A stretch of DNA of 47,935 nucleotides from Eremomyces bilateralis CBS 781.70 (taxonomy: Eukaryota; Ascomycota; Dothideomycetes; Eremomycetales; Eremomycetaceae). The translations under genes and the position numbers were made by a program. Shown piece by piece: positions 38,066 to 42,384 of the stretch. How positions within the stretch are numbered: position 1 is the first letter of the stretch; every line of letters starts with the position of its first letter. Below the pieces are notes generated by a model. That model saw nothing but the letters and a program-made list of their open reading frames with translations. It was not told where the DNA came from and did no database searches. The DNA is taken from contig NW_022985082.1 in NCBI RefSeq assembly GCF_010015585.1, positions 251,060 through 298,994 on the forward strand. The letters run 5' to 3'.

Positions 38066-38891
38066 TCAAGCCGCCGCAGCGGACGCACCCTCCGTTACCC
38101 TCTCGACCTCGATCTTTGGCATCGCTGCTCCCGTGCCACCTAGATCCGACACCTTGGCGTTGGGGTTCTTGGAGTAATAATTCGAGATGGCAGACTTGAT
38201 GGCGTCTTCGGCGAGCATGGAGCAATGAACTGCATGCAAATCAGCCTTCATCCAGACAAAAGAACTTCCTCATTCCTCGAGGCCCATAAAAACCCCGTCC
38301 TCGAGGTTCCGAATGGAAAATTAGTTACTTACGCTTCACAGGCGGCAAACACAACTCCTTCGCAATCTCCGTATTCTGGATCTTTGCCGCGTCCTCTAGC
38401 GTCATGCCACGCACCAGCTCCGTCAGATAGCTGCTCGACGCGATGGCCGAACCGCAGCCGAACGTCTTGAATTTCACCTCCGAGATGGTGTTGTCCGCGG
38501 GGTCGACGCGGATCTGCAGCTTCATCACGTCGCCGCACGCCGGGGCGCCGACCAGGCCGGTGCCGACATCGGCGTCGTTCTTCGGCATCGATCCGACGTT
38601 GCGGGGGCGGCTGTAGTGGTCGAGGAGTGATGGGGGGGTTAGCGGAGCGTTCGTGATAGAGAATATAAAAAAAGATGGGAACCATTCAAAGTTGATCTCC
38701 AGGGGGTTTTGATGGATGCTTGATGGTGTCGAGGGTCAAAGGGTACACTTATCTTTCTCATGATATGACCGCCGTGACTCGATCATCGGCGCCGCAGCAG
38801 CGACGCGATGTGTCGAGGAGATGGATGGACGAGCGGTGGAGAGAAGGGCGCCGGCCCGCTTCGGGGCGACGGCGAGGGCTCTGCGCATCAT
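38066..38891 (-). CDS. ISU1: ISU1, mitochondrial Fe-S cluster scaffold
   Basis: Scaffold on which Nfs1/Isd11 assemble the [2Fe-2S] cluster in the mitochondrial matrix. Exons 38753-38891, 38333-38626 and 38066-38229 give 198 aa. The presequence (MMRRALAVAPKRAGALLSTA) has Arg/Ala/Ser and no acid. Then SYHEK-VLDHYSRPRNVGS (V47 spans the first junction), CGDVMKLQIRVD, KTFGCGSAIASSS and the Ssq1-binding LPPVK followed by LHCSMLAEDAIKSAI; the three cluster Cys are all present. The first intron (38627-38752, 126 bp) starts ATAAGT and ends CTAACCCCCCCATCAC, i.e. AT-AC; the second is a normal GTAAGT...TGCAG. A GT-AG reading of intron 1 would delete the invariant LDHY. The start could be either of two adjacent ATGs. 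Confidence 0.95.
38627..38752 (-). other. AT-AC intron in ISU1 (U2-type, non-canonical)
   Basis: The exon ends AAAG, the intron starts ATAAGT and ends GCTAACCCCCCCATCAC, and the next exon begins TCCTCGACCAC. Joining gives GTC (V47) and the family motif HEKVLDHY. The 5' site differs from the consensus GTAAGT by one base, and the branch site CTAAC is of U2 type, not the U12 TCCTTAAC. There is no AG between the branch site and the AC. Confidence 0.8.
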
Positions 38892-39486: not shown

Positions 39487-41891
39487 TTAAACCCTCCGTA
39501 AGAAATAGACGTATGCAAACTTCTTCATCTCATCCGCGTCGACCGCCTGCGCGACCTTCTCATCATTGAAAAGCACCCAAGCGGACTGCGACCCTTCCGG
39601 AAGCGCTTTCTTCACGAAAGCTACGTAATGTCTGATATACTCCGTTAGCGAAATTTCATCGATGGAAATTTGTATGGCGACATCACGTACCCAGCGTGGA
39701 TCGAAGACCCCTTGTGGCAGACAATCGACTCCAGCTTAAAGTTCGCGGGCGTCTCTGCACTGCCAGCGAGTGGCTTGTCACCCGTCGGTGCATTCTCCTC
39801 TGCAACCTCGTCCAATACACCGGGGTCATCGAGGTGGGAAAATGCCCATTCGGCGGCGAGATTCACATCGCCGTTGGTCTCCTTCAACGCCTTCTTAGCA
39901 AGCGGCCCTTCAACACCGAGTGCCGCCAACATCTCCACCGAGGCGGGATCGGCGGCGGGGCTGGATGAATTGCCGCCGACGTTCAACGGCTGGTTGATCG
40001 CGTCGTCTTCCATGTGTTCCATCAGCCAATTCAGCGCGGCTTCGGCGTTCGTGTTCCCGGTGGCGTGCAGCGCGTGTTCGCATTGAACACGCGGGAAGCC
40101 CATCGTTTCGAGCACGGTTAATGCTTCTTCGTTAGGGACGAATTTCGGGGTCCTGTCGGCATCTTCGGGTAGGAGCTCTTCGCCGGGCTGGAGTCCTGGG
40201 GATAGGTATTGGTCGAGCGTGATGGCCTCGTCCTCGACGATAACGGGGACGTCGTGCTTCGTGGGAACCCAGTTGACGAGACCGAACCGCCGAGCGTTGA
40301 TCGCCAGCGTGGTTGGGAGGGTTTTGAAGAGGGATTGTTTGGTGAAGCCGTCCTTGCTCTGGCAGGCAGGGCAGGTTAATTCGACGGTTTCAGGGGCGGT
40401 GAACAGATCGAGGCACTCTTTCAGAGTAACCGGCTCATAGGTCTCCTTATCTTCGGATGAGGCGTTCGCTTCTCGGGGGACTTTTCGTATCGGTACCGGA
40501 ATCGAAATGTTCTCTTGCTCGTCGACCTTATATCGCACCTTCTTGCATGCATTGCATTGAAGCTTCTGCTCCATCGCGAATCGGAAAATATCCACGGGAT
40601 TCCGAAGCGGAGCATCGTGTTTCGATTTGCCGATCATCTCAAACAGGTGGAGAAGGTATTCGAACGAATCTTGCTGCCTCATCGTGGAGAACTCTTCGTG
40701 TCCTTTCCCAACCAGGGATTTGAACATGGCTGGGGCGAGCCCTTTCTGCCAGGTCACTTCCTCGGACCCCTCCGGTACTTTGACATCCTTGTCTGGGTTC
40801 GAGTATCGGCCGGAAAGCAAGCCGTCTGCGACCTTTCTCATTTGAGTCTCGAAGTCTTCGGCGGGTTTCGAGGTCGATGTCGGTCCCGATACCTGATTGA
40901 AGTACCGCTCCTGAAACTCCGGCATGGCGAACAACGCCTGCAACGAGCTGTTCATATAACAGCTGTTTCCCAGGTTCTTCAGCCCCGTGAACCCCTTCCC
41001 AAACACCGGCTTGATCTCCTTCCCATCCTCGGTTGTCATCGAGAACTCCCACCGCAAATTCTGCTCAATCTGCATCTCCGTCAGGCTCTTCTCCGTCTTC
41101 TGTCGATCCGCAATGTTGATCCCCCAGTGCGCCAGATGCTCCGTGAGCTTCGGGTCTTTCCGCTCGTCGTCACACGCATAGCAGTAGATGTCTGCCGTCC
41201 CGTCCGCCGTCAGCGACCCCAGCTTGACCGCCACTGCATGCTTCGTCGCATCCGTGTGCGCGAGCCCGTGCGAGTTCCCACCCCCGCCTCCAAACTGCGC
41301 GCGTCCGCACCCCAGATTGCCGCACGTTAAGCACAGCCAGAGGTTCTCGTTCAGTTCGCACATCGAGCAGTGCCCCAGATCCTGCGAATCGATCGCCCGC
41401 GGCGGTTCCTGCTCTAGGAATGCCGTATGGTCACAGATCGTCAGCTCCTGCTCCCACGCCTTCACTTCCTCCTGCTTCGCGAACGTATTGGCCCTCAACA
41501 CCGCGTTCACCACCTCCACCAGCGCCCCCTGCGAGCCATCCACATTCTCCACCCTGCACTCCAGGCACCTCACCTGCGTTGCCGTGTCATACCGATCCGC
41601 CTCCGTCTCCGCCGAGATGGCAAGCTTGGTGAGCTTCTGCGGCGGCTCGTCGCGGTCGACGACTTTCCTCGTCCGTTTGATATTGAGGACTAGGGGGTGC
41701 TTGGACGTCTCATAGTGGAGTTTGTTGTGTTGCCGGTCGCCTGCACAGCCGCCGTTGTAGCAGGATAGGCAGACGTCGAGCCCGGCGGGGTCGTCGATAC
41801 TGTCGAAGCAGATGGTGCAATCTTCGCGATAGACGGATTCGCTGGGGCGAGGAGGACGGAGGGAGGAGGAGGAGGCATGAGGGCATGCCAT
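39487..41891 (-). CDS. UBP14: UBP14/USP5-type ubiquitin-specific protease
   Basis: Deubiquitinase that disassembles free ubiquitin chains (isopeptidase T). Exons 39691-41891 and 39487-39631, intron 59 bp (GTACGT...CTAAC...ATCAG), 781 aa. A cryptic N-terminal zinc region (CTICFDS, CLSCYNGGC) is followed by the ZnF-UBP at about 175-240 (CSMCELNENLWLCLTCGN, GCGR). Catalytic Cys311 lies in NLGNSCYMNSSLQ, QQDSFEYLLHLF follows at about 406, two UBA domains are at about 587-627 and 650-688 inside the catalytic domain, and the His box GHYVAF (H735) plus WVLFNDEKV come from the last exon. The domain order is that of USP5. The His box is split by the intron, which fixes the junction. Start is the only suitable ATG (MACPHASSSS). 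Confidence 0.96.
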
Positions 41892-42384
41892 TTTGGGTTG
41901 ACTGGAATTGGAAAGGAAATGGGTGTCTGGTAGGTTGTTTGACGGATTTTCTAGAATGTATTGTTTCCGGAAGCTTCAGTTTGTTTTGAGTGATCTCATA
42001 AGTTACATGTATGGGTTGGGTGGGGTAGCGGGGTGAGGCGCCGAGGCTACAAGGCAACGTCACATTCTGATAGATTCAAATCTGCTTGTTTTTCTTGTCC
42101 AGTCCCGCAATGTGAACTCAATGCGAACTCAATGCAAACGGTTCTTTCAAATATCAAACTTTTTATTATTAAGTATCCAATATTTTCATGGTATCTAACG
42201 GATGAAATCTAAGATGTATCTAAGACTCGTATCTAAGGAGTCTTCTATCGCTCCCAGATCGACCAAAACCGCTGAAAGGGATAAGAGTGCTTCATCAAGC
42301 AAATTATTATAAGATGCCCTCCAAAAGTTGCGTGGAAAGGTATCTTCTTCAAGTCGCCACTATACTCCAGAATATGCATTTCCT
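41892..42384. promoter_or_regulatory. UBP14 promoter region and MFS 3' end
   Basis: About 490 bp between the UBP14 start and the stop of the next minus-strand gene. No further coding sequence. Confidence 0.4.

Follow-up and report, generated by a model that had tools for sequence, protein, structure and literature searches.

The question raised by the ISU1 gene of Eremomyces bilateralis CBS 781.70 is whether an essential gene may carry, as its first intron, a stretch of DNA that begins with AT and ends with AC and, if so, which spliceosome would remove it. The gene lies within the window, by which we mean the whole stretch of 47,935 nucleotides, at G000:C16:251060-298994, that was analysed. 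In the reading that we defend here, and that we hold to be very probable, the 126-nucleotide stretch between the first two coding exons of ISU1 is an AT-AC intron that is spliced by the U2-type machinery and has been inherited across Dothideomycetes, and gene models restricted to GT-AG ends yield proteins with a spurious insert.

The ISU1 gene and its deposited protein

The initial annotation had recognized the gene as ISU1 from its sequence, and this identity was borne out. The protein matches the NifU_N family (PF01592) with an E value of 4.5e-51, it displays the HE-V-DHY...PRNVG block of the ISU1/IscU scaffolds, and its best solved relative is 5t0v, described as 'Iron sulfur cluster assembly protein 1, mitochondrial'. 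A search of the genome (26.6 Mb, 62 contigs) with exon 2 found a single copy. The parts of the gene and its splice signals are collected in Table 1, together with two U1-like genes discussed below.

Besides the start ATG at 38891 there is a second in-frame ATG at 38888. Exon 1 codes for residues 1-46 of P0001, the deposited protein of the same strain, and contributes one base more, the G of a split valine codon. Its 3' end reads CATGAGAAAG, with 38753 as its final base, and the 5' end of exon 2 reads TCCTCGACCACTAC, with 38626 as its first base. P0001 (198 residues) is identical, at every residue, to the translation obtained across the AT-AC ends, so that the deposited gene model already splices at these ends; presumably, that model rests on RNA evidence. 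A 776-residue open frame adjoins ISU1 on the minus strand of the window (39645-41975); we take it to resemble UBP14-type ubiquitin-specific proteases.

Table 1. Coordinates of ISU1, of its proposed splice signals (positions in the window) and of the U1-like genes (positions in the genome)
Feature	Position	Strand	Remarks
ISU1 gene	start ATG 38891 to stop ending 38066	minus	
ISU1 exon 1, coding part	38753..38891	minus	presequence to HEK
Proposed AT-AC intron, 126 nt, phase 1	38627..38752	minus	ATAAGT...ATCAC
Proposed 5' splice site ATAAGT	38747..38752	minus	U1-like 5' ends pair except +1
Proposed branch site CTAAC	38638..38642	minus	branch A at 38639
Proposed 3' splice site ATCAC	38627..38631	minus	
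ISU1 exon 2	38333..38626	minus	TC of Val, LDHYSRPRNVG ... LPPVK
ISU1 intron 2, 103 nt	38230..38332	minus	canonical GTAAGT...CAG
ISU1 exon 3, through stop codon	38066..38229	minus	
U1-like gene L004	G000:C2:825516-825649		
U1-like gene L005	G000:C32:60915-61073		

Choice of the splice ends

Which ends would keep the protein intact? Pairs of the types GT-AG, GC-AG, AT-AC, AT-AG, GT-AC and GA-AG were enumerated, with donors from 38800 to 38641, acceptors at least 40 nucleotides further, down to about 38560, and the requirement that the frame be kept to the normal C-terminus. Among the frame-keeping pairs tested, 38752/38627 alone restores HEKVLDHY: joining 38753 to 38626 gives SYHEK-V(G/TC)-LDHYSRPRNVG. 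This upholds, for the pairs tested, the original claim that an AT-AC splice is the sole way to keep the motif. The same enumeration contains the canonical alternative that had been put forward with it, GTGTAC at 38748 to CTACAG at 38611, which does keep the frame and yields HEKDNRPRNVG, without VLDHYS. When intron 1 is left unspliced, the reading frame ends after HEKDKCTL.

The donor motif is not rare in itself. GATAAGT occurs six times in the window for 4.39 expected, and six times or more in 25 of 100 shuffles; the motif is thus at chance level, and the case draws its weight from the conservation of the protein, from the gene model as deposited and from the homologues. Folding of the RNA of intron 1 revealed nothing unusual (z = 1.42; 186 of 200 shuffles fold equally well or better). 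That the AT-AC intron is spliced in vivo we infer from the deposited model together with cDNA-like contigs of relatives.

Inserts at the junction in homologous proteins

Three protein searches listed 287 homologues, P0001 itself among them. With the intact protein as the query, 120 proteins were listed, 115 with a normal junction and five with an insert (Dothideomycetes sp. NU459, Glonium, two records of Venturia inaequalis, and Coniosporium); these five inserts, an unbiased sample, all begin with D and end with L. The other two probes contained the junction HEKDKS..LDHY, and the 44 extra inserts that they brought in form a sample biased to inserts. A pattern test on the 287 listed proteins found 232 intact and flagged 55. 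In 49 of them HEK is followed by an insert and then by [LI]DHY. The remaining six are P0121, a false call in which VIDHY is present, P0206 and P0207, which begin within the intron, and P0191, P0221 and P0248, where HEKD is present and LDHY lost. It had been expected from the sequence that gene finders, left to their defaults, would predict the damaged protein. This does not hold for E. bilateralis, where P0001 is intact, but it does for many relatives, HEKD being found in 52 of the 287 listed proteins, a count enriched by the insert-bearing probes.

Aspartate comes first in all 49 inserts and leucine comes last in all 49, and HEKG was met in none of the 287 listed proteins. In phase 1 after a G, an AT donor makes GAT, hence Asp, and a GT donor makes GGT, hence Gly; in the same way a final intron C makes C/TC, hence Leu, and a final intron G makes G/TC, hence Val. 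Read in this way from translated codons, the introns of the relatives would begin with A, followed by T or C at base 2, and would end with C, the base before it being a third codon position that is unreadable from proteins. The second residue is K in 30 inserts and N in six, which fits an ATAAGT donor, M in seven (fitting ATATGT), D in three and E in one (fitting ATGAGT), and T in two (fitting ATACGT); isoleucine, which would be expected at this place from the U12-type ATATCC, occurs in none of the 49. Just before the final leucine, 45 inserts have A, S, P or T and the other four L or V, so that the third-last base of the intron would be C or T. Six residues before the end of the insert, 16 of the 48 distinct inserts (41 are at least eight residues long) show Leu-Thr, at a position that would fit CTNAC at a distance of 12 nucleotides, as in the E. 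bilateralis intron.

Could these inserts be true residues, or unrelated slips of annotation, with the AT-AC intron private to Eremomyces? The relatives are known from proteins alone, and their inserts differ in sequence and range from four to 46 residues in length, which speaks for such a view. We nevertheless hold it to be unlikely, because of the constant D and L at the extremities of the inserts and the lack of HEKG among the listed proteins, because the branch-like Leu-Thr stands at a fixed offset in 16 of 48, and because Phyllosticta citriasiana has both forms, P0124 with an insert and P0064 intact, with the same sequence outside the junction. The initial annotation had asked whether AT-AC was conserved or the outcome of a recent change at both ends; judged at the level of proteins, the AT-AC intron is probably conserved.

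Taxonomic spread

Among the 52 HEKD proteins, 28 named genera are represented, together with a Dothideomycetes species that has no name; 41 of the 49 inserts are in named records, which span 25 genera plus a single unnamed species. A look-up confirmed Coniosporium, Glonium, Venturia, Phyllosticta, Aureobasidium and Neocucurbitaria as Dothideomycetes. We take 27 of the 28 HEKD genera, these six among them, to belong to this class.

Xylographa is the sole named Lecanoromycete with an insert. Its nearest named neighbour in a tree of the core protein, a tree too weak for placing it, is Coniosporium, a Dothideomycete, so that contamination is possible. Inserts that end with NPL before LDHY are found in P0247, P0251 and P0275; in the same tree, too weak for placing these as well, they are nearest to Blastenia, a lichen fungus of the Lecanoromycetes whose own listed protein is intact. 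These three may be Lecanoromycetes that carry the same intron. Since intact proteins are uninformative on the ends of introns, other classes may carry the AT-AC intron too.

Relatives of IscU were also seen in IMG/VR viral contigs, at 80 loci at least (598 confirmed stretches), with at most 70% identity to the fungal protein among the loci listed. None of these listed loci is as close to E. bilateralis ISU1 as fungal proteins are, and one DNA pattern for the ISU1 intron, sought among the viral contigs, gave 0 matches.

Intact twins and read-through

Would the cell use the canonical pair after all, and make a protein with HEKDNRPRNVG? The sites are there, the frame is kept, and relatives have similar deposited models, for example Didymosphaeria HEKDKSPFTHHY. 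This is very unlikely, knowing that P0001 of the same strain is intact, that the motif is kept in 232 of the 287 listed proteins, and that two damaged models are equalled, outside the junction, by intact copies that look like cDNA.

These copies come from a comparison of 43 damaged models, namely the 44 flagged proteins that are named minus P0250, with 71 intact proteins from short contigs in the table of the intact query. Apart from the junction, P0136, a damaged model of Botryosphaeria dothidea, agrees at all 193 positions compared with the intact P0027, which lies on a contig of 1,173 bases. The damaged P0240 of Neocucurbitaria equals the intact P0088 at 189 of 189 positions (1,295 bases), and P0135 of Parastagonospora agrees with P0070 at 187 of 188 (972 bases). 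Altogether two of the 43 damaged models have an identical intact twin, and 11, including those two, have a twin at 97% identity or above; for Xylographa the closest intact short-contig protein is at 77.6%. Considering their source and the shortness of their contigs, the short intronless copies are probably cDNA.

Read-through at the second intron provides a control. Three proteins from environmental contigs, P0122, P0206 and P0207, read through into intron 2 as VKCEY, consistent with a GT donor; read-through thus reveals GT where GT exists. All three belong to a Venturia-like fungus, and P0122 crosses intron 1 in frame, with no stop.

Splice signals and type of spliceosome

The intron had been described at the outset as U2-type rather than U12-type, and its signals agree with this. 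In the genome of E. bilateralis, U2 (138.4 bits) and U6 (85.9 bits) are both above the cut-off of their families, and two U1-like genes are found, at 60.4 and 55.9 bits, both below the Rfam cut-off of 69.5. Both begin with ATACTTACCTTG; their first 12 bases are identical and the sequences diverge downstream. Against the donor AAG/ATAAGT the U1-like 5' ends form eight of nine pairs, from -3 to +6, with +1 alone unpaired. The donor has G at +5, a feature of U2-type donors. Branch sites of the CTAAC type are the fungal U2-type consensus; here, the branch A lies 12 nucleotides upstream of the last intron base. The canonical intron 2 of the same gene has the same bases at +2 to +6 (TAAGT) and a similar size (103 against 126 nucleotides), whereas intron 1 differs from canonical GT-AG introns by its A at +1 and its C at -1.

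A U12-type intron, removed by the minor spliceosome, would have the same AT-AC ends, and the distance of 12 nucleotides falls within the optimum of 11-13 nucleotides that passages of PMC3584512 give for the branch site of such introns. This explanation is nonetheless hardly tenable. The donor of ISU1 is ATAAGT, and those of the relatives would be ATAAGT-, ATATGT-, ATGAGT- or ATACGT-like, in place of the ATATCC of U12-type introns. U12, U6atac, U11 and U4atac (RF00007, RF00619, RF00548, RF00618) had 0 matches in the genome, in a search that had no positive control and in which the tool's own controls were silent too; nor did the PDCD7 family match, again with no positive control. The absence of the minor spliceosome from the E. 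bilateralis genome is thus only indicated. The part of PMC10639083 that we cite describes minor introns as completely absent from Dikarya, and an excerpt of PMC2846911 has U12 splicing lost in Ascomycota and Pezizomycotina.

Finally, it is extremely improbable that errors of assembly or sequencing mask an ordinary GT-AG intron, for although two base changes would be enough, they must have occurred separately at A+1 and at C-1, and similar errors would be needed in the many genomes behind the 41 inserts of named records.

Mechanism and origin

Splicing of an AT-AC intron by the U2-type machinery might proceed as follows. The major spliceosome would remove intron 1 of ISU1 in spite of its ends, U1 pairing with AAG/ATAAGT except at +1 and U2 binding CTAAC, with A at the first and C at the last intron position as substitutes for the usual G and G. 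During the second splicing step the two end bases of an intron contact each other, and in yeast genetics A-C can replace G-G there. If a change at a single end is harmful, the intron would stay locked as AT-AC. The same position, phase and ends would have been inherited across Dothideomycetes, perhaps also in Lecanoromycetes. Gene models bound to GT-AG would move the ends inward, leaving codons of the intron in the protein as a false insert. What we witness is probably an AT-AC intron of the U2 type that is old, sits in an essential gene and is frequently mis-annotated; its age, like its exact ends in the relatives, is what we infer.

The AT-AC ends themselves might be a fossil. It is possible, if rather doubtful, that a U12-type AT-AC intron of early fungi acquired a U2-type donor, kept its AT-AC ends and its branch distance of 12 nucleotides, and was then locked because a return to GT-AG needs two simultaneous changes. 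The intron would in that case come from the ancestor of Dothideomycetes, and might be common to Lecanoromycetes. Human ISCU probably has alternative first exons that splice in immediately ahead of VVDHY, in which case the position of the intron would be old. The optimum of 11-13 nucleotides for U12-type introns, again from passages of PMC3584512, counts for this origin, and a path from U12 to U2 that keeps AT-AC, although rare, is proposed for sodium channel introns in the text cited here from Lin et al. (PMC2831892). The same portion of that work also provides points against it: all 87 U2-type introns in its conversion clusters are GT-AG, and the change of the ends is usually thought to come first in the conversion.

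Known AT-AC introns and the meaning of the ISU1 case

AT-AC introns of the U2 type (AT-AC II) are already known. One of them, intron 21 of the human gene SCN4A, likewise combines AT-AC ends with a U2-type donor, G at +5 and the major spliceosome, as set out in part of PMC2831892. By contrast, the ISU1 intron is short, fungal, located in the gene of a mitochondrial Fe-S scaffold, apparently traced through several orders of Dothideomycetes, and found in a lineage reported to be without the minor spliceosome. Caenorhabditis elegans, in the account that we draw on from PMC3033335, has 59 AT-AC introns, at least 42 of which are thought to be real and probably U2-spliced, while U11, U12 and U4atac seem absent, as in the present fungus. 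AT-AC introns without a minor spliceosome are therefore not new, but the ISU1 intron belongs to another kingdom and to another gene, and the account of C. elegans is silent on whether individual introns are deeply conserved. With U12-type AT-AC introns, it has in common the end dinucleotides and the branch distance. For fungi the sources differ: AT-AC is a minor non-canonical class according to sections of a study of 130 fungal species (PMC7072748), while in human fungal pathogens it makes up 0.09-5.19% of the splice sites in RNA-seq, by the figures quoted from PMC6176087. The AT-AC intron of ISU1 is not named in the literature searched, the scope of which lay outside supplements, preprints and most subscription journals. 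What would be new is the ISU1 case, an intron that, from the protein sequences at hand, is apparently deeply conserved.

With reference to the biology of splicing, U2-type AT-AC introns are rare, and one kept across many genera would be a natural test of the pairing between the first and last bases of introns. Situated in a lineage reported to have no minor spliceosome, the ISU1 intron also bears on the fate of U12 introns. It exposes a recurrent error of annotation, for which the signature HEKD...L[LI]DHY offers a simple screen of damaged models, and the same logic could reveal further hidden AT-AC introns.
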